From positions 1 to 34,590 of the IMG/VR virus record IMGVR_UViG_3300022725_000334: a stretch of 34,590 nucleotides of DNA. One strand, 5' to 3'. Positions 20,862 to 33,495 of the stretch are shown piece by piece (within the stretch, counting starts at the first letter, position 1; each line of letters begins with the position of its first letter). A model generated the notes under the pieces. The model had not been told where the DNA came from, did not search any database, and saw only the letters and a program-made list of their open reading frames with translations. Made by a program: the position numbers and the translations under genes. The stretch is from a virus.

Positions 20862-21365
20862 TCATCCCGCATCCGGTACAACGCCGTCATCTACGAGGTC
20901 GTGAAATTCTTCCTCCCGCATTATCCAGATCCCGGCAGCTTGGGCCTTTTCTATCTTTTTCGGGCCGGCATTGGGGCCGCAGCACAGGTATTCCAGGTCT
21001 TTGGTCACACTTTTACGCACCAAAAAATTTCCGGCGTTGGCTTTTTCACCCAGCAGGGCCTTTAAATTGGATGAAAACCCTGTAAAGCAGATTGTTCCAT
21101 TGTTCGGCGTCGGATCACTTGGTTTGGATTGAACAGGAATATAGGCAAAACTCACTGATGTACCCGTGTCCTGACAAAGGCTCACAATTCTATCTTTGCG
21201 AAATGTCAGATATTTGTTTTGCTCCAGATCGATCGCACTAAATAAAGCCCCTTGGCTCTTTAACACTTTAATCCTGCGTTTGGATATCTGCCCCTTTGCG
21301 TTGCGATATTCCAAGAACAATTCTTCATCTAAAGAGACATCACCGTCTGTGATTTCTTCAATCAT
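20862..21365 (-). CDS. BRCT-domain protein with a WYL-like N-terminal segment
   Basis: The C-terminal half (from about residue 88) reads TICFTGFSSNLKALLGEKANAG, then VTKDLEYLCCG and GPKKIEKAQAAGIWIMREEEF. This is the order of motifs of a BRCT domain as found in NAD-dependent ligases and exonucleases. The N-terminal part (LEYRNAKGQISKRRIKVL, then KYLTFRKDRIVSL) resembles the small beta-barrel at the end of WYL-domain regulators that senses ligands or nucleic acid. ATG at 21365 was chosen because GGGGGTG lies just upstream; GTG at 21371 is possible. There is no nuclease or ligase domain. A role in DNA-end or damage signalling is only inferred. Confidence 0.8.
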   Translation of the reverse strand: MIEEITDGDVSLDEELFLEYRNAKGQISKRRIKVLKSQGALFSAIDLEQNKYLTFRKDRIVSLCQDTGTSVSFAYIPVQSKPSDPTPNNGTICFTGFSSNLKALLGEKANAGNFLVRKSVTKDLEYLCCGPNAGPKKIEKAQAAGIWIMREEEFHDLVDDGVVPDAG

Positions 21366-21423
21366 GCACACCCCCTAATTCCGAGATATGCAAAATCAAC
21401 ACGCATAGCGAGTTTTGCAAGTC

Positions 21424-21469: not shown

Positions 21470-22153
21470 TTACAGGGCTTTGACGACCCAACGCACCACC
21501 CCGATAATATTAAGTTTTTCCACTTTATCCGGGTCCAGCACCTGATTTTCATAACGATCATTGTCTGAAATGATGATCACACCCTCGGGGCGTCTCTGGA
21601 TTCGCTTTACAACCAGTGCGTCCCCCCACTGCATGGCGTACAGGGCATTATCCAGAATTTTGGTGACGGACAGGTCAATAAAAAGGGTATCATCATTGCC
21701 CAGTGTCGGGGCCATGGAATCCCCGAATGCCTTGGCAATTGCCAGATTTTTTGGGTTCAGATCCCCCATGACCTCGGTAATCGATCGCCGGTCCATCGGA
21801 ACATAACCTGCAATGTTTTCTGGCGCAAACCAGTTTCCCGGTTCGCCGTCTAGAAATTGTGCCAAGCGGGGCACATCAACAGTTTGCGCATCGCCTTCCA
21901 AACAGGGTGCATGTCCAAACGCAATTTCGTCCAGGCTGGTGTTAGTCACAAGTGAAAGCCGCGCCATTGCCTTGAAAGATGGGTCGCGCGCGCCATTCCC
22001 CCAATCCTGAAAAGTGGACTTGGAGCAACCAACCGCATCCGCCGCCGCTTGGCGGTTTTGAAACTTTTTTTCAAGCTCACGTATTCGTTTTCCGGTTTCT
22101 TCTAAAAAAATCTTGTCGTCGAAGTCATCCGGATCGCCAAGGATTTCTGCCAT
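21470..22153 (-). CDS. CI-type repressor with HTH and LexA/S24 self-cleavage domain
   Basis: This is the probable protein repressor of lysogeny. The 227-aa product has an HTH near residues 30-60 (RQAAADAVGCSKSTFQDWGNG). Its C-terminal S24 domain has catalytic serine S146 in AFGDSMAP and lysine K183 in DALVVKRI, the normal 37-residue spacing. RecA-stimulated self-cleavage is expected, making the prophage SOS-inducible. This differs from P2, whose C repressor lacks a cleavage domain. It is divergent from the Ner-like gene across 180 bases with operator-like repeats, and is followed by a terminator. Confidence 0.92.
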   Translation of the reverse strand: MAEILGDPDDFDDKIFLEETGKRIRELEKKFQNRQAAADAVGCSKSTFQDWGNGARDPSFKAMARLSLVTNTSLDEIAFGHAPCLEGDAQTVDVPRLAQFLDGEPGNWFAPENIAGYVPMDRRSITEVMGDLNPKNLAIAKAFGDSMAPTLGNDDTLFIDLSVTKILDNALYAMQWGDALVVKRIQRRPEGVIIISDNDRYENQVLDPDKVEKLNIIGVVRWVVKAL

Positions 22154-22213
22154 ATTTACCCCCGTAAAGTAGCAAAGGAATTGTTTACAACTCTGATATG
22201 GAGGCTATAGAGC

Positions 22214-22242
22214 TTGATTTTCAGTTCTTGCGGACTTATAAA
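22214..22242 (+). promoter_or_regulatory. Candidate early promoter for the Ner-like operon
   Basis: TTGATT (22214-22219), a 17-base spacer and TATAAA (22237-22242) make a fair sigma-70 promoter reading right toward the Ner-like gene. The start point would fall near 22249, inside the GTTC/GAAC palindrome at 22246-22265, so the site could be repressed by direct binding. Confidence 0.6.
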
Positions 22243-22245
22243 CAG

Positions 22246-22290
22246 GTTCGTACAACTTTTTGAACATAAAAAAACACTCTTGAACAAAAG
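22246..22290. promoter_or_regulatory. Operator-like repeats between the repressor and Ner-like genes
   Basis: GTTC (22246-22249) and GAAC (22262-22265) flank a 12-base centre. TTGAACA then recurs as a direct repeat near 22261 and 22280. GTACAAC occurs at about 22250 and again near 22323. The cluster overlaps the start point of the candidate early promoter. CI or Ner binding is expected here but the assignment of sites to proteins is inference. Confidence 0.45.
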
Positions 22291-22310
22291 CCGACCCCCT
22301 ACAGGTCGGC
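22290..22310 (+). repeat. Perfect 7-bp stem-loop in the leader of the Ner-like gene
   Basis: GCCGACC (22290-22296), loop CCCTACA and GGTCGGC (22304-22310) form a perfect stem 24 bases before the ATG at 22334. There is no T-tract, so it is not a standard terminator. It would lie in the 5' leader of the early transcript. Confidence 0.5.
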
Positions 22311-22333
22311 GATGGGAACAGGGTACAACAAAA

Positions 22334-22609
22334 ATGACGCGCGACAAATCGGCAAAACAGATATTGGCCCTGCTGGATGCCAATAATATCAAATCGTTCA
22401 GTCAGATTGACAGGTTACATAACCTCAGACCGGGCACCGCCAGTAATGCGGCCCGTTTCCCCGTCAAGGCGGGGGAATTGGCAATTGCATCAGCACTGGG
22501 CACCCCGGCGGCGGAGATTTGGCCGTCCCGATACCATGCAACAACAGGTAAGCGTCTCTCCCCGCAACCCGCCGGGAACTACCCTTCCATGCAAAATACC
22601 GCAGCCTGA
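22334..22609 (+). CDS. Ner/Nlp-like DNA-binding regulator
   Basis: This 91-aa protein matches the Ner/Nlp HTH family of phage Mu. After a helical N-terminus (AKQILALLDANNI) it has DRLHNLRPGTASNAARFP, then AGELAIASALGTPAAEIWPSRY. The last stretch is the diagnostic (A/V)xIWPSRY motif. Ner proteins repress the repressor promoter and tune early transcription, taking the Cro/Cox place here. ATG at 22334 follows the leader hairpin; an upstream in-frame codon would overlap the operators. The C-terminal ~25 residues are unstructured. Confidence 0.88.
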   Translation: MTRDKSAKQILALLDANNIKSFSQIDRLHNLRPGTASNAARFPVKAGELAIASALGTPAAEIWPSRYHATTGKRLSPQPAGNYPSMQNTAA

Positions 22610-22627
22610 CGAACGCGAGGACGTGCC

Positions 22628-22885
22628 ATGTCAACCAAGCCCACGACCTATAAGGTCCCGCGCACCCGGTGTCCGCACTGCGACACCCTGTGTAAAAACG
22701 TCAAGTCCCGGCAGATAACCGAGACTTACCGCGAAATCACCTTCGTTTGCGAAAACAAAAAATGCGGCTGCATCTTCCTGGTCAGCATGGAGGTTGTGCG
22801 CATGATCTACCCCTCCAACGTACCGCGTCCGGGCTTGAATATCCCCTGGCCGAACTGGGGCCAGACACCGCAACCCACTTCCTGA
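22628..22885 (+). CDS. ogr: Ogr/Delta-type zinc-finger late activator
   Basis: P2 Ogr and P4 Delta are zinc-finger activators that recruit RNA polymerase alpha subunit to late promoters. This 85-aa protein has the family metal site: C15-P-H-C18 and C41...C46, with KSRQITETYREITFVCENKKC between and after, close to Ogr's SRYI...ERYHQCQN pattern. The C-terminal 25 residues are proline-rich. It is transcribed with the Ner-like gene rather than after D as in P2. Its likely targets are the palindromes at 2494 and 8151. Confidence 0.9.
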   Translation: MSTKPTTYKVPRTRCPHCDTLCKNVKSRQITETYREITFVCENKKCGCIFLVSMEVVRMIYPSNVPRPGLNIPWPNWGQTPQPTS

Positions 22886-22973
22886 ACACATCCGACGAAA
22901 GTTTTAAAACCATGTTGACACCCTGCACGAGTTCTGGTTATCTTGCAGATGTTGCAGCAAATTCTGCACACGG

Positions 22974-22998
22974 GATTGGCGTCCCGTTTAGTCTAAGG
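22974..22998 (+). promoter_or_regulatory. C4/CI antisense RNA target site 1 (seqA-like)
   Basis: GATTGGCGT (22974-22982) and GTCTAAGG (22991-22998) are each exactly complementary to parts of the antisense segment at 23079-23101. The hairpin at 23005-23035 with a T-tract follows directly. This repeats the P4 plan in which pairing of the CI RNA with seqA in the leader leads to early termination. Confidence 0.8.
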
Positions 22999-23004
22999 CG
23001 TTCG

Positions 23005-23035
23005 AACCACGCCAAGCATTTGATGCGTGGTTTTT
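23005..23035 (+). terminator. Leader hairpin with T-tract, attenuator-like
   Basis: AACCACGC (23005-23012) and GCGTGGTT (23025-23032) form a perfect 8-bp stem with a 12-base loop, followed by TTT within the run 23031-23035. It sits between target site 1 and the antisense RNA, as expected for conditional termination of the early operon. Confidence 0.65.
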
Positions 23036-23105
23036 CTATGGGTTCGGGCGCGGGAGAGAACCTTCGGGTTCGCCGTTTCCTTAGACGCGGTAACGCCAAT
23101 CTCTT
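23036..23105 (+). ncRNA. C4-type (P1 c4 / P4 CI-like) antisense immunity RNA
   Basis: The short antisense core CCTTAGAC (23079-23086) and ACGCCAATC (23093-23101) is complementary to two sets of target sequences, at 22974-22998 and 23121-23163. Upstream in the same RNA is a hairpin GAACC-TTCG-GGTTC (23058-23071) with a stable UUCG tetraloop. CCG/CGG (23073-23075 with 23088-23090) would present CCUUAGA in a loop. This order (target, antisense, target) before a replication gene matches P4 seqA-seqB-seqC and the P1/P7 c4 system. The exact ends are estimates; processing from the leader transcript is assumed. Confidence 0.8.
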
Positions 23106-23120
23106 GCGTCCGGCCCGCCC

Positions 23121-23163
23121 GATTGGCGTCGAGCGAGCTGGACTGGATCAAAACAGTCTAAGG
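23121..23163 (+). promoter_or_regulatory. C4/CI antisense RNA target site 2 overlapping a ribosome binding site (seqC-like)
   Basis: GATTGGCGT (23121-23129) and AGTCTAAGG (23155-23163) repeat the target motifs, here with a 26-base gap. The second motif runs into AAGGAG, the Shine-Dalgarno for ATG 23173, so pairing with the antisense RNA would cover the ribosome site directly. This parallels c4 control of icd in P1. Confidence 0.8.
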
Positions 23164-23172
23164 AGTCTCGCT

Positions 23173-23415
23173 ATGGGCAAACAACACCCGCAGTCTATCC
23201 GCCTTGTCACTGCCGATCTTTGGCATGAACTTGACGATCTGACCTTTACAATCGCGCAACTCGCCGCCAGCCTGCCGTCCACGTTGGAAGAACTGGACCG
23301 CTACACCCCCACAGATCAACGCCGCCTGATTGCCAAAAAGGCACAGATCGAAAACACCATCGCATTCTTGCGCCAAAAACTCACCGACATGCCCAAAGCC
23401 AACGGCGGTGCGTGA
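23173..23415 (+). CDS. Small early protein under C4 RNA control (Kil-like position)
   Basis: The 80-aa product has no recognised domain. It is helical with heptad-like leucines (ADLWHELDDLTFTIAQLAAS; QIENTIAFLRQKLTDM), so a coiled coil is likely. ATG at 23173 has a good AAGGAG site 9 bases upstream that is also part of antisense target site 2. P4 has the kil gene and P1 has icd in the equivalent position, both toxic division inhibitors. Function here is inferred from position only. Confidence 0.8.
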   Translation: MGKQHPQSIRLVTADLWHELDDLTFTIAQLAASLPSTLEELDRYTPTDQRRLIAKKAQIENTIAFLRQKLTDMPKANGGA

Positions 23416-23717
23416 TGTCACAGGTGAAACAGCGTTACTTCCACACACAGTTTGAAGTAGACGGCAGTGTTTGCGTCTATGTCGGGCATGAGCCTTTTTG
23501 CATCGTTCCCACCGAGGCCCTGGGCGACCGCCTTGCCGATGTGCTGAACGAGATTGTGGACCACAACGTCCAGAACCTGACGGCGGACAAAGTCTTTATT
23601 GGTCTGGACCCCAGCCAAGGCCCTGACATGGGGGCCATCGTCAGTTGGCGCACGAACGACGGCAAACTGATTTTCAACGACATCGCCACGACCATCGGCA
23701 TACAAGACCAGGGATAA
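23415..23717 (+). CDS. Uncharacterised early protein upstream of primase
   Basis: ATG at 23415 overlaps the previous stop (GTGATG), giving 100 aa. The sequence is mixed alpha/beta with a middle helix (ALGDRLADVLNEIVDHNVQN) and a C-terminal VSWRTNDGKLIFND strand region. I recognise no family. It is coupled to the 80-aa gene and sits 7 bases before the primase-helicase, so it probably belongs to the replication operon. Confidence 0.75.
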   Translation: MSQVKQRYFHTQFEVDGSVCVYVGHEPFCIVPTEALGDRLADVLNEIVDHNVQNLTADKVFIGLDPSQGPDMGAIVSWRTNDGKLIFNDIATTIGIQDQG

Positions 23718-23724
23718 GAATAAG

Positions 23725-26421
23725 ATGGGGGTATTACGCCAGGACGTGCGCGAAGAGGTAATCGGCCTTTTAAAACAGCGCTTTCAATTCAAAGAGCGGG
23801 GGGATTGGTTCCGCCAAGGAACATGCCCGGATTGTGGCAAGAAAGAACTGTACGCCCATGCCACCGACCCATGGTCGGTAATATGTGGCCGTCTGAATAA
23901 GTGCGCCTATGAAAGCGACGTTAAAAGCCTGTTCCCCGAAGCGTTTGAGAATTTCAACAAACGTTTCCCTGCCAATGACGACGATCCCAACGCCACCGCC
24001 GATGCCTACATGCATCATGCGCGTGGTTTCCCGATCAAGGAAATCAAGGGCTGGTACCGACAGGGGAAGTACTGGAACCCAAACGCTGAGAGCAGCCGCC
24101 AAGGGACCGCCACCGTCCTGTTTGACATCGACAAGGAAAACGGCATCGCCATGGAACGGTTTATCGAAACCGTGACCGTGATTGATCCCAGGGATGGTTC
24201 TAAAGACGTGCGCCGAGCCAACTTTATCGGTAGTCACCGTGGCCTGTGGTGGGTACCACCGGGGCTTGAAATCAAGAAGCATTCCGAAATCTGGATTGTC
24301 GAAGGCATCATCGACGCGATCGCGTTGAACCTGTCCGGTATCAAGGCCGTGGCGATTTTGTCCGCCGGAAACTTCCCGGCAAAAATGCTGGAAAAACTTG
24401 ATAAATCCGTCAAGCTGGTCTGGGCATTGGACGACGACAAGGCAGGCCGCAGCTACACCAAACGCCACCACAAACGCGCCGTGGAAATGGGTTTTGAAAG
24501 TTCCGCCGCCATTCTGCACACCAACAGCAAAGACAAGGTTGACTGGAACGACGCCTATCAACGCGGCTGGCTGAATGCCAAAAACGGCGAGGTAAAAGGT
24601 CCGCGCGATCGAAATATTAAGAATTACCGCTATCACGGCGAACAATTGCTGGCCCCGTCCCCCTTTGAAAAAGGCATCTCGACGTGGCGCTATCTATGCA
24701 AAAACGAATTTGCCCTGACCTTTAACAAAAAGGTCTACTGGTTTAACCTGGACGTTGACAAATTCACCAAGGAAATCAACAACGACGAAGGATCGGGCAC
24801 AGAACAAGAAAGACGTGAACGTGCGGCGCGCAATTCCGGCGCTGTCTTTGAGATTTCCAACTGTCACTTTCAGTTTTTATACTTCCTGAAATCCGAACAT
24901 ACAGACGAAAGCTGGTATTACGCCAAGGTTGATTTCCCCCATGGCCGCCACATCATTAAAAACACCTTCACCGGTGCCCAGGTCGCCAGTGCGTCTGAAT
25001 TTAAAAAACGCCTGTTATCGATCGCACCCGGGGCCTTGTTCCAGGGGAACGGGAAACAACTGGATTGGATTGTCCGCCGGCACCTGACCGATATTAAAAT
25101 CGTCCAGACCGTGGATTTCATCGGCTACGCCAAGGAACACGGGGCCTATATCTTCAACGATATCGCCATCAAGGATGGGCAGGTTTACAAAATCAACGAA
25201 GAAGACTTTTTCGAAGTCGGCAAGCTGTCTATCAAATCCTTGCTGGAATCTCTGGTCTTTGAAATTGGCGAGAAAAAACACTATAGCGAAAAATGGAAAG
25301 ATCACGTTTGGAACGCCTACCGTGAAAAAGGCATGGTTGCCGTTGCCTTCTTTATCGGGACCTTGTTTGCAGAACAGATCCGGGCACGACACAAAAGCTT
25401 TCCTTTCCTGGAAATTGTCGGGGAACCCGGGACCGGTAAATCCACCCTGATTGAATTTGCATGGAAACTGTTGGGCCGCGACGATTACGAAGGTTTTGAC
25501 CCCAACAAATCCACAAACGCAGGGCGCGCGCGGAATTTCTCCCAAGTTGCCAATATGCCGGTTTGCCTGATTGAGTCTGATCGCGAAGACAGCGCCAAGG
25601 CCAAACAGTTTGATTGGGATGAACTAAAGACCGCCTACAACGGGCGCGCCAGTCGGTCACGCGGGGTAAAAAATGCCGGACACGACACAAGTGAAAGCCC
25701 CTTTCGCGGGTCCATCCTGATTTCGCAAAATGCTGCCGTTGATGCCTCCCAAGCCATTATGGAACGGATTTGCGCTTTGGACTTCAAGGTTGCCGAACAA
25801 AGCCCGGAAACCAAGATTGCCGCCGATGCCCTCGCAACCTTGCCGGTTGAGCAACTGAGCTACTTTCTGATCAAGGTTTGTACGCAGGAAAAAGCGGTTT
25901 TGGATATTTTCAACAAAAAGGCGATTGAATACGAACAGCAAATCTTTGCCTTGCCGGATATCAAGCTTTACCGGATCGCCAAAAACTATGGACAACTACG
26001 GGCCTTGGTCGATGCCATGGCCATGTTGATCGACCTGAACCCGGAACAAAAACAAATAATCCACCAATACCTGACCGACGCCGCTGTGGAACGTCAACAT
26101 GCCATCGGGGCAGACCCCAAGGAACTGAACGAGTTCTGGGAGGCGTTTGACTACATGACCACAATCGACAAAACGTTGAACCATGCGCGCAATGAGGACC
26201 CGGACCGCCCGACAGAAATCTATCTGAACCCCAACCAGGTACAGAAACGCGCATTCGAACTGCACCAGAATATCCCGCCCATGAACGAGTTAAAGAAAAT
26301 GCTCAAGGACGGGAAAAGGTGGAAATTCATCACCATCAAGGCCGTGAACTCGCCACACCAAAGACTAAACGGCGATGTCTGGACCTTGAAATGTTGGTGT
26401 TTCGCAAGAAACCCCGACTAA
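23725..26421 (+). CDS. P4-alpha-like replication protein: zinc finger, TOPRIM primase and helicase
   Basis: This 898-aa protein should prime and unwind phage DNA. A zinc finger with C34-P-D-C37, C54 and C60 is at the N-terminus. A TOPRIM domain follows with E193 (WIVEGIIDAIAL) and the DxD pair D236/D238 (WALDDDKAGRSY). A central DUF927-like part precedes a P-loop ATPase with GEPGTGKST (566-574, K572) and Walker B VCLIESDRE at about 614-622. This layout matches TOPRIM-helicase proteins such as P4 alpha and other phage primase-helicases, and is not P2 gpA. No HUH endonuclease occurs in the window, so theta-type rather than rolling-circle replication is likely. Confidence 0.92.
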   Translation: MGVLRQDVREEVIGLLKQRFQFKERGDWFRQGTCPDCGKKELYAHATDPWSVICGRLNKCAYESDVKSLFPEAFENFNKRFPANDDDPNATADAYMHHARGFPIKEIKGWYRQGKYWNPNAESSRQGTATVLFDIDKENGIAMERFIETVTVIDPRDGSKDVRRANFIGSHRGLWWVPPGLEIKKHSEIWIVEGIIDAIALNLSGIKAVAILSAGNFPAKMLEKLDKSVKLVWALDDDKAGRSYTKRHHKRAVEMGFESSAAILHTNSKDKVDWNDAYQRGWLNAKNGEVKGPRDRNIKNYRYHGEQLLAPSPFEKGISTWRYLCKNEFALTFNKKVYWFNLDVDKFTKEINNDEGSGTEQERRERAARNSGAVFEISNCHFQFLYFLKSEHTDESWYYAKVDFPHGRHIIKNTFTGAQVASASEFKKRLLSIAPGALFQGNGKQLDWIVRRHLTDIKIVQTVDFIGYAKEHGAYIFNDIAIKDGQVYKINEEDFFEVGKLSIKSLLESLVFEIGEKKHYSEKWKDHVWNAYREKGMVAVAFFIGTLFAEQIRARHKSFPFLEIVGEPGTGKSTLIEFAWKLLGRDDYEGFDPNKSTNAGRARNFSQVANMPVCLIESDREDSAKAKQFDWDELKTAYNGRASRSRGVKNAGHDTSESPFRGSILISQNAAVDASQAIMERICALDFKVAEQSPETKIAADALATLPVEQLSYFLIKVCTQEKAVLDIFNKKAIEYEQQIFALPDIKLYRIAKNYGQLRALVDAMAMLIDLNPEQKQIIHQYLTDAAVERQHAIGADPKELNEFWEAFDYMTTIDKTLNHARNEDPDRPTEIYLNPNQVQKRAFELHQNIPPMNELKKMLKDGKRWKFITIKAVNSPHQRLNGDVWTLKCWCFARNPD

Positions 26422-30147: not shown

Positions 30148-30186
30148 AACGTAAGGATTTTGGGCCGATCGGAACAGAGAGGAACC

Positions 30187-31146
30187 ATGACTGCATATTA
30201 TAACGAATTTGATAAAGACGCGGCGGCTTGGCTTCGAGTTCTGATCGATCGCGGATTAATCGCCCCGGGCGTAGTTGATGAAAGAGATATTCAAGATGTT
30301 AGACCAGACGAAATCAGAGGCTTCACACAATGCCATTTCTTTGCCGGCATTGGAGGATGGCCCCTTGCTCTTCGTAACGCGGGATGGCCCGATGACCGAC
30401 CAATCTGGACAGGTAGTTGTCCCTGCCAGCCTTTCAGCCAGGTCGGCAATGGCGATGGAGCTAACGACGAAAGGCACCTATGGCCCGCGTTCCGTTGGCT
30501 CATCATGCAGTGCCGCCCTCCAGTCGTTGCTGGAGAGCAAGTTGCAAGTAAGGATGGGCGGGAATGGGCTTCCGATGTACAAACTGACTTGGAAAACATG
30601 GCCTACCGCCCGGCGTGTGCCGATCTCTGCTCTGCGGGCATCGGTGCACCGCAAATCCGTCAACGCCTTTATTGGGTGGCCGACACCCAGACACAACGAC
30701 CCGGAGAAACGCGGGGATTTCGACCCCACAAACCCGAGAAACGGCTTGCCGGCAGCGGCGAAACTCGCGGGATGGCCCACAGTTCTGGCGACCAGTTGCA
30801 ATACTGCATCACACAGCAAGAACAAGCAGGGGGGGCTGAACCTTCAGATGACAGCCCAATTAGCTGGTTGGGCTACACCTACGGTCCGGGACCACAAGGA
30901 TGTGGGGGACCTGTCGAAAAGTCTGTTCAGGAAATGCGGAAAGATGAGGAACGACTTATTAGCGTTTCAGGCGTACCTGTGTACTGCGCAGACGGAAAGG
31001 TCCGGTTCATTGAACCCAGCATTAGCCCGATGGCTGATGGGATACCCGCCCGAGTGGTGCGATTGCGCGGTTACGGCAACGCGATCGATCCCCGCGTAGC
31101 CGCTGAATTCATTGCATCTTACATGGATGCAACAGAGCAATCGTAA
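30187..31146 (+). CDS. C5-cytosine DNA methyltransferase (phage Dcm-like)
   Basis: The enzyme methylates C5 of cytosine, probably protecting phage DNA from restriction. ATG at 30187 has GAGAGGAA 3 bases upstream. Motif I FAGIGG is at residues 52-57. The catalytic PCQPFS has C80, and GEQVA at 116-120 takes the place of the ENV motif. IRQRLYWVADTQ follows in the middle. The C-terminal GYGNAIDPRVAAEFIASYM is the conserved last motif, so the whole frame is needed. The middle part (about 175-270) is short and low in conserved sequence. The same DNA from 30278 to 31099 is open in the +1 frame and encodes a second phage-type protein (see that entry). Confidence 0.9.
   Translation: MTAYYNEFDKDAAAWLRVLIDRGLIAPGVVDERDIQDVRPDEIRGFTQCHFFAGIGGWPLALRNAGWPDDRPIWTGSCPCQPFSQVGNGDGANDERHLWPAFRWLIMQCRPPVVAGEQVASKDGREWASDVQTDLENMAYRPACADLCSAGIGAPQIRQRLYWVADTQTQRPGETRGFRPHKPEKRLAGSGETRGMAHSSGDQLQYCITQQEQAGGAEPSDDSPISWLGYTYGPGPQGCGGPVEKSVQEMRKDEERLISVSGVPVYCADGKVRFIEPSISPMADGIPARVVRLRGYGNAIDPRVAAEFIASYMDATEQS
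30278..31099 (+). CDS. Overlapping +1-frame ORF, GWPTP-repeat phage protein (dual-coding candidate)
   Basis: A 273-codon open frame in the +1 frame of the methyltransferase gene. It carries landmarks I recognise from a widespread phage protein group: LPALEDGPLLFVTRDGPMTD, then VVPASLSAR and SAALQSLLESKL. KLTWKTWPTARRVP follows, then repeats (IGWPTPRHNDP, LAGWPTVLATS, LAGWATPTVRDHKD) and the ending NPALARWLMGYPPEWCDCAV. The methyltransferase motifs in the zero frame force some of these: WVADTQ shares bases with GWPTP. No strong ribosome site precedes it. It may be a true second product or a shadow conserved because of the methyltransferase. An alternative start is ATG at 30296. Confidence 0.45.
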   Translation: MKEIFKMLDQTKSEASHNAISLPALEDGPLLFVTRDGPMTDQSGQVVVPASLSARSAMAMELTTKGTYGPRSVGSSCSAALQSLLESKLQVRMGGNGLPMYKLTWKTWPTARRVPISALRASVHRKSVNAFIGWPTPRHNDPEKRGDFDPTNPRNGLPAAAKLAGWPTVLATSCNTASHSKNKQGGLNLQMTAQLAGWATPTVRDHKDVGDLSKSLFRKCGKMRNDLLAFQAYLCTAQTERSGSLNPALARWLMGYPPEWCDCAVTATRSIPA

Positions 31147-32362: not shown

Positions 32363-32809
32363 ATGCCTATATCAAAAGAGAAGATGGAAAAATATCCGGG
32401 TGGCTCAATCCGTTCTAAAGAATGGAAAGCCATAAGAGCTAAAATACTCGATCGCGCCAAGCATAAATGTGAACGGTGCAAAGTAGCCAATTATGAACGT
32501 GTTTTACGGCCTGATGCCCACAACACCTATATCATGGTTGATACTGGCATGACATTTGATGCCGATACGGGGGAATTGCTGAGATATACACGAGGCAGTG
32601 AAATGCCCTTCGGGCGTTTTGTCGATATTGTGCTGACGATTGCACATGTGGACCAGGACCCGACGAACAACGATCCATTGAATTTGTTGGCCTTGTGCCA
32701 GCAATGCCACAATCGGTTGGATGCCCCCTTTCGCAAACTCAATGCCGCGCGCACCCGGCATGACAGAAAAGCTATCCGAGATTTCTTTGATGCGGAGGCA
32801 GTAAAATGA
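32363..32809 (+). CDS. HNH endonuclease family protein
   Basis: The 148-aa product has a zinc-ribbon-plus-HNH arrangement: C36-C39 (HKCERCK), the HNH core with H95 in VLTIAHVDQDPTNNDPLNLL, and C112/C115-H116 in ALCQQCHNRLD. In P2-like and other cos phages such nucleases can aid packaging or act as homing or defence nucleases. Here it lies far from the terminase and next to DNA methyltransferases, so a restriction-like or recombination role is as likely. Confidence 0.88.
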   Translation: MPISKEKMEKYPGGSIRSKEWKAIRAKILDRAKHKCERCKVANYERVLRPDAHNTYIMVDTGMTFDADTGELLRYTRGSEMPFGRFVDIVLTIAHVDQDPTNNDPLNLLALCQQCHNRLDAPFRKLNAARTRHDRKAIRDFFDAEAVK

Positions 32810-33495
32810 AGCAACATTGTTGTATCTGCCGAGCCAAATTCACGGCCAAGCGTATCGATAAGATCACCTGTTCTGACCGGTGCCGACAAGTCTTGTCACG
32901 TTTAGTGCGTAAGTGTGACAAAGAGATGCCGCAAAAACAGTACAATATTATCTATGCGGATCCGGCACTGCCCCAAATCACATATTCTGACAAAGGGGAA
33001 CTGAGAACTCCACAAGCCAAATACCCGACCGTTGGAATTGAAGGTCTAAAGAAATTTCCATTTAGCCGGCTGGCCGCAGATGATTGTTGGCTGTTTATGT
33101 GGGTATACGGTCCATGGGCCGACAAAATCAATGAACTGGTCACGGCCATGGGGTTCGAAGTGACCTCGAAAGAGGGATTTATTTGGGTTAAAACGACCAA
33201 GGACGGTACGCGCCCGGCTATGGGCCTAGGCTATACAACTCGTAAAAGCGCTGAAACGATGCTGATCGCCCGGCGGGGCAAACCTATACGTTTCAGTAAA
33301 GGGGTAAATCAAACATGGTTTCATCCAAGGATGCAGCACAGCGAGAAACCTGGATTGTTTAGAAACCTAATTGTCAAATATGCCGGTGACCTCCCCAGAA
33401 TCGAACTATTTTCCCGTCACAACATTGACGGATGGGACGCCTGGGGGAATCAGATTGGGAAACTGGACCGGGAGGAAAATCAAAATGTTGAATAA
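32806..33495 (+). CDS. MT-A70-like adenine methyltransferase with an altered DPPW motif
   Basis: The 229-aa product starts with a small zinc-ribbon (CCICRAKF ... TCSDRCRQVLSRL; cysteines at 5-8 and 22-26). An MT-A70 N6-adenine methyltransferase fold follows: YNIIYADPALPQ at 46-57, DCWLFMWVYGPW, EGFIWVKTT and HSEKPGLFRNLI. In this family the catalytic motif is normally DPPW; here it reads D52-P53-A54-L55, so activity may be lost or changed. Motif order and the rest are well kept. ATGA overlap with the HNH gene points to coupled expression. Confidence 0.82.
   Translation: MKQHCCICRAKFTAKRIDKITCSDRCRQVLSRLVRKCDKEMPQKQYNIIYADPALPQITYSDKGELRTPQAKYPTVGIEGLKKFPFSRLAADDCWLFMWVYGPWADKINELVTAMGFEVTSKEGFIWVKTTKDGTRPAMGLGYTTRKSAETMLIARRGKPIRFSKGVNQTWFHPRMQHSEKPGLFRNLIVKYAGDLPRIELFSRHNIDGWDAWGNQIGKLDREENQNVE

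Follow-up and report, generated by a model that had tools for sequence, protein, structure and literature searches.

What is a short antisense sequence, framed on both sides by copies of its own target, doing ahead of the primase gene of a P2-type phage? The window examined here is the whole of a 34,590-base viral record (IMGVR_UViG_3300022725_000334). Gene matches bear out that its head, tail and packaging genes are P2-type, and a tyrosine integrase lies at its right end. A first-pass annotation had read the locus as antisense-RNA immunity layered on protein-based control, and that interpretation holds for the most part: the locus is a true C4 module, a further member of an established RNA family in a new setting, a P2-type phage. 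It sits between an Ogr-like gene (end 22885) and a phrog_1139 primase (23725-26421), in a genome that also encodes, as had been claimed, a CI/S24 protein repressor alongside the integrase. The genes around the module are:

21470-22153, minus strand: S24 peptidase/CI-type protein repressor (protein family matches)
22334-22609, plus strand: HTH_35 (Ner/Nlp-like) regulator (protein family matches)
22628-22885, plus strand: Ogr/Delta zinc-finger activator (protein family match)
23173-23415, plus strand: 80-aa open frame directly under target 2, in an icd-like position, starting 8 nt after block b2
23412-23717, plus strand: 101-aa open frame overlapping the stop of the 80-aa ORF (GTGATG)
23725-26421, plus strand: DNA primase/helicase (Toprim; phrog_1139, E 3e-301), the main gene downstream of the switch

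The target-antisense-target order upstream of a primase-helicase is present, but two small ORFs separate target 2 from the primase. Neither of these ORFs matched a family in Pfam or PHROG, and no antirepressor was recognisable, so the silenced function is known by position only. Because its start overlaps the stop of the 80-aa ORF, the 101-aa ORF is possibly translationally coupled to it.

The host is likely alphaproteobacterial, judging from primase sequences. The closest primases, at ~48-54% identity, include those of a Rhodospirillum metagenome-assembled genome (MAG), a Telmatospirillum genome and sampled genomes of the Rhodospirillum MAG's class, which favors the host originally proposed, but two viral contigs whose host is not known match the window primase equally closely. 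Elsewhere in the window, a small BRCT-domain protein (20862-21368, minus strand) matches phage proteins labelled NAD-dependent DNA ligase, with the catalytic part apparently missing, and a C5-cytosine methylase and an MT-A70-type methyltransferase are encoded near the integrase (30160-31146 and 32806-33495).

The module itself consists of the following parts:

22915-22944, plus strand: candidate promoter for the module, sigma-70-like (TTGACA-18-TATCTT, 10/12 consensus matches)
22953-23035, plus strand: IsrK/SeqA/a1b1-like leader RNA comprising two hairpins and an intrinsic terminator (isrK RF01394 match below cutoff)
22974-22982, plus strand: target block a1, GATTGGCGT, in a hairpin loop (exact complement of 23093-23101)
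22991-22998, plus strand: target block b1, GTCTAAGG (exact complement of 23079-23086)
~23004-23036, plus strand: attenuator separating target 1 from the antisense RNA, a hairpin that resembles an intrinsic terminator plus a T-run, fitting the terminator part of the isrK model
23034-23122, plus strand: C4 antisense RNA (RF01695, 55.3 bits, E 3.4e-8)
23078-23086, plus strand: antisense block b', loop of hairpin P3 (complementarity and Rfam model alignment)
23093-23101, plus strand: antisense block a', single strand between P3 and P1 (complementarity and Rfam model alignment)
23121-23129, plus strand: target block a2, GATTGGCGT (exact complement of 23093-23101)
23156-23164, plus strand: target block b2, GTCTAAGGA (complement of 23078-23086), covering the Shine-Dalgarno sequence (AAGGA) of the 80-aa ORF

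Membership of the C4 family is clear from the Infernal search that had been suggested, which was positive above the curated cutoff of 45 bits; the alignment spans the full model (1-87), and the structure has no non-standard pairs. The antisense RNA had been expected to end near 23105. By analogy with the P1 C4 RNA (48343-48419), which sets its length, the mature RNA is instead expected to be the 77 nt at ~23040-23116, and a GGGTT at 23040 would be compatible with RNase P processing at GG. The complementarity is exact over 9 and 8/9 nt to both flanking targets. The first-pass annotation had described direct copies flanking a reverse complement, and the pairing on both sides stands; each copy, however, is two blocks with a spacer of 8 nt (target 1) or 26 nt (target 2), not a continuous repeat. 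A scanner for target-antisense-target patterns, run over the whole 34.6 kb, returned this locus as its sole plus-strand match, where 17 complementary bases are shared. The highest value from twelve first-order Markov regenerations of the full window sequence was 13, which rules out a chance origin of the block complementarity.

The score of the window RNA lies under that of many C4 loci (60-87 bits), and one could therefore suppose a decayed relic, an RNA gene that is kept and controls nothing. We think this very improbable, since the six blocks are all undamaged and are exact complements, the alignment keeps its standard pairs throughout and the downstream frames are open.

Upstream of the antisense RNA, the candidate promoter is the only promoter-like site in 22100-23300, where shuffled sequence is expected to give 0.6. 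The leader that follows matches the isrK model (RF01394) at 42.3 bits (E 5.7e-8; cutoff 50) and, over 22938-22990, the c4-a1b1 model (RF03163) at 31 bits (E ~4e-6; cutoff 46.7), both matches under cutoff and both from a 400-base search. The attenuator-like hairpin that had been noticed between the first copy and the antisense copy is found at ~23004-23033, followed by a T-run, with a fold of -13.0 kcal/mol. A 36-nt stretch of the leader (22951-22986) is 91.7% identical to the E. coli phages IdasGreatGrand and PhiR26_1, with no other match nearby.

The closest counterpart of this arrangement is the immunity region of P1/P7, which shares the RNA family (RF01695) and the order a1-b1, C4, a2-b2. 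The P1 record annotates a promoter, P1c4, followed by a1 (48255-48261), b1 (48269-48276), C4 (48343-48419), a2 (48423-48429), b2 (48452-48459) and the icd start (48470), and the scanner returned P1 C4 as its top match in P1. The distance from the end of the -10 element to a1 is about the same in the window and P1c4, and the remaining spacings are close: 8 nt in the window against 7 in P1 between a1 and b1, 4 against 3 from the end of C4 to a2, 26 against 22 between a2 and b2, and 8 against 10 from b2 to the start codon (ATG at 23173 in the window). Only the distance from b1 to C4 is shorter, at 41 nt against 66. In both phages the first ORF is small, has b2 on its ribosome-binding site and overlaps the next, icd with ant1 in P1 and the 80-aa with the 101-aa ORF here. 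Translation of icd/ant in P1 is repressed when C4 pairs at a2/b2 (P1 annotation; PMC8198154; PMC5320573). A protein repressor co-exists with the RNA in both as well, and because P1 does likewise, layered RNA and protein control in the window is not unusual for the C4 family. We looked in the window for sequence that the C4 promoter shares with the CI control region and found none, which leaves control of that promoter by CI unsupported. The differences from P1/P7 are that the window phage is P2-type, that its block sequences are unlike those of P1, and that its downstream genes run on to a primase and include neither icd nor ant in recognisable form.

Other features of the locus recall P4 and the Salmonella prophage Gifsy-1, and these bear on how the RNA acts. 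The P4 immunity region (seqA-cI-seqC) has the target-antisense-target layout (PMC4825925) and a primase downstream, with alpha annotated in P4; the layout is taken from the published description, and our scanner, run on P4, did not recover cI. In P4 the CI RNA acts through premature transcription termination (PMC4825925), whereas target 2 in the window lies on a start site. IsrK (STnc1160) of Gifsy-1, the namesake of the model that the window leader resembles, is also found upstream of a small ORF and an antirepressor, and its likeness to P4 SeqA is already published (PMC4825925); the window differs in that its match falls under the Rfam cutoff and no antirepressor is recognised. One could thus suppose that the window C4 RNA acts mainly in the P4 manner, at a1/b1, to cause premature termination, with the block on translation at a2/b2 secondary. 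The good intrinsic-terminator hairpin after b1, the SeqA-like leader and the downstream primase all lend this some weight, but, as in P1, b2 coincides with the Shine-Dalgarno sequence, and we regard P4-style termination as the main action as a possible but rather doubtful account.

We instead favor a C4-type antisense switch that silences the 80-aa ORF and the replication genes downstream of it, and give this reading a probability of roughly 0.87. From the sequence, the structure-model match, the complementarity and its conservation in relatives, and the geometry of the window switch, we infer transcription, processing, repression and immunity as follows. A transcript from the leader promoter would either stop at the attenuator or read on, and the 77-nt C4 RNA would be excised from the read-through transcript. 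Its b' block, in a hairpin loop, and the adjacent single-stranded a' could then pair with a1/b1 in the nascent leader and with a2/b2 where translation of the 80-aa ORF begins. The latter pairing would mask the Shine-Dalgarno sequence and block translation of that ORF, and through coupling and polarity the output of the second ORF and of the primase would fall as well, so that neither the prophage nor a superinfecting phage carrying an identical address could start replication. Pairing at a1/b1 may adjust read-through of the attenuator and thereby the dosage of C4 RNA, or may provide a P4-like termination step. Cofolding C4 with its targets is only slightly more favorable than folding them apart (-0.1 and -2.1 kcal/mol), in part because the excised C4 is itself stable, and kinetics or a loop-first contact would therefore have to drive the pairing.

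Relatives of the window add to the support for this reading. Among phages with a window-type primase, some carry C4, some lack it, and some have a different RNA, sRNA-Xcc1, in its place. The C4 carriers are two alphaproteobacterial prophages (L083 and L085), each with a C4 match at 72 bits. Their RNA backbones are nearly alike, and the blocks differ (TTGGAAG/CTCAAGG against TTAGCAG/CCTATGG), with the antisense and both targets changed jointly, in what is, by sequence, an apparent switch of immunity group. More broadly, C4 was present in 20 of 150 genomes sampled from the phylum of the Rhodospirillum MAG. Across 32 C4 loci, the window and one Billgrantia genome match among them, the antisense half of the RNA shows more complementarity to its own flanks than to those of other loci (upstream mean 14.3 against 9.0 nt, downstream 14.4 against 7.5), and none of 20,000 permutations reached the observed sum. 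An antirepressor lies downstream in 8 of 21 C4 loci of the first sample.

This agreement with the flanks also bears on whether the window RNA is a trans-acting sRNA aimed at host genes, a role suggested by the C4-like RNAs of Acinetobacter, for which an adaptation to host targets has been proposed (PMC5320573). Such a role seems hardly credible for the window, where both blocks match both flanking sites over their full length and the flanks suffice as an explanation.

Neither C4 nor sRNA-Xcc1 was found in the primase relatives L003-L007, L016, ESSI2 and Dobby. Scanner scores in the relatives with neither RNA were 11-14, at or near the chance level; in ESSI2 (L081) the scanner gave 16 at the extreme end of the retrieved sequence, away from the C4 site.

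The relatives with sRNA-Xcc1 raise the possibility that C4 is not the only RNA family to fill this position. Since 2010, sRNA-Xcc1 has been on record as an integron-borne, trans-acting sRNA controlled by HrpG/HrpX. The model (RF02221) matches upstream of the primase, with C4 absent, in two relatives, at 65.3 bits in L011 and 43.2 bits (under the cutoff of 53) in L002. It matches at 73.5 bits, again upstream of a window-type primase, in Smp131 (JQ809663, RNA at 24352-24439), an isolated P2-like Stenotrophomonas phage. All three have a target 1, a terminator, sRNA-Xcc1 and a target 2 adjoining a start codon. Smp131 has exact matches to its two blocks, GTAAGAAC and GTCAACAG, in each flank, and 11 nt separate the end of target 2 from a GTG that is in frame with an annotated gene, an anti-repressor according to RefSeq. 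The annotated coding sequence of that gene, Smp_36 (L080:1769-2341), crosses the sRNA-Xcc1 gene, and the likelier start is the in-frame GTG at 2099, just past target 2, which would give an 80-aa product.

The same plan recurs well beyond these phages. Our sample of 150 genomes held 36 carriers of sRNA-Xcc1, 25 of them above cutoff, and a pattern search of IMG/VR for the conserved hairpin matched at least 120 stretches. Matches to own flanks exceed those to other flanks both in 33 genome and phage loci (upstream 15.2 against 9.2, downstream 12.3 against 7.5; 0 of 20,000 permutations) and, among the matches listed, in 64 viral copies with distinct antisense sequences (13.6 against 8.8 and 12.5 against 7.6; 0 of 5,000 permutations), the loci of both RNA families being mutually related, not independent, and the permutations retaining family-wide sequence in both arms. 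Of these 64 viral copies among the matches listed, 52 have an upstream match of at least 12 bases (17% of mismatched pairs) and 54 a downstream match of that length (12.5%). The backbone of the sRNA-Xcc1 alignment is conserved and the target-pairing loop variable, with compensatory change in 11 of 15 predicted pairs. The loops thus co-vary with their own two flanking targets and would therefore define immunity groups.

Where these targets lie points to what they control. Among the matches listed, target 2 of the viral loci mostly ends 6-12 nt upstream of a start codon (start codons were picked by a simple rule, and a few are wrong), which suggests that selection acts on translation initiation and also argues against P4-style termination as the main action in the window. 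The 69 ORFs downstream of viral sRNA-Xcc1 copies among the matches listed often have N-terminal domains of antirepressor type, namely KilA-N (12), AntA (9), pRha (8), ORF6N (8), P22_AR_N (7) and Bro-N (5), counts in which one protein may appear twice, and many of the ORFs match anti-repressor PHROGs. In the first sample, an antirepressor lies downstream in 8 of 23 sRNA-Xcc1 loci.

By sequence, sRNA-Xcc1 is not RF01695, and it appears to resemble C4 in its working. It takes the C4 position in P2-type relatives (L002, L011, Smp131) and shares the target-antisense-target plan. It differs in being a separate Rfam family with no clan listed, in its conserved AAUACAA-ACCC...GGGGAAU hairpin, and in target 2 blocks that are mostly 2-5 nt apart, against ~22-26 in the C4 loci of P1 and the window. 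Up to E 0.1, the C4 model had no match at the sRNA-Xcc1 sites of L002, L009 and L011. We consider it very probable that sRNA-Xcc1 is a second widespread C4-type antisense RNA family of lysogeny and immunity, located at the C4 site in related P2-type phages and usually silencing the start of an antirepressor, and that C4 and sRNA-Xcc1 modules are interchangeable cassettes. Not every member is a full switch, as five loci (L030, L032, L034, L043, L046), in which target 1 is complementary and a terminator-like run precedes the RNA, show no clear target 2; these possibly represent a solo, self-tuned, trans-acting form.

Earlier work approached this RNA from a different direction. Passages on its discovery in Xanthomonas describe cloning, a Northern blot and genome-wide target predictions (PMC2996969), others place it upstream of symE in integron cassettes and report activation by HrpG/HrpX (PMC12444791), and in Xylella several copies are described, with bacterial and plant targets predicted (PMC12189769). 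Our plasmid searches for the original Xanthomonas integron sRNA-Xcc1/symE cassette yielded nothing useful, and the loci tested come from genomes, phages and viral contigs. A 2025 review of phage sRNAs covers C4, sar and IsrK and makes no mention of sRNA-Xcc1, and we found no link between C4 and sRNA-Xcc1 in the portions of the open-licence literature searched, which leaves prior publication possible. Because the best-supported targets adjoin the RNA, the published predictions of host and plant targets for sRNA-Xcc1 and its Xylella homologues would need rereading. The window, then, adds a P2-type phage, probably one of an alphaproteobacterium, to the range of a textbook RNA switch, its relatives point to a concrete and testable role for an RNA whose function was unclear, and the match of loop blocks to flanking targets is a rule that could predict which prophages are homoimmune.

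Both families also occur in multiple copies. Three C4 copies lie ~715 nt apart on one contig (L061/L075, G066:C237), and two sRNA-Xcc1 copies ~530 nt apart on one viral contig (L123). The number of C4 copies in a single genome reaches 27, 14 and 10 (G143, G159 and G107, respectively).
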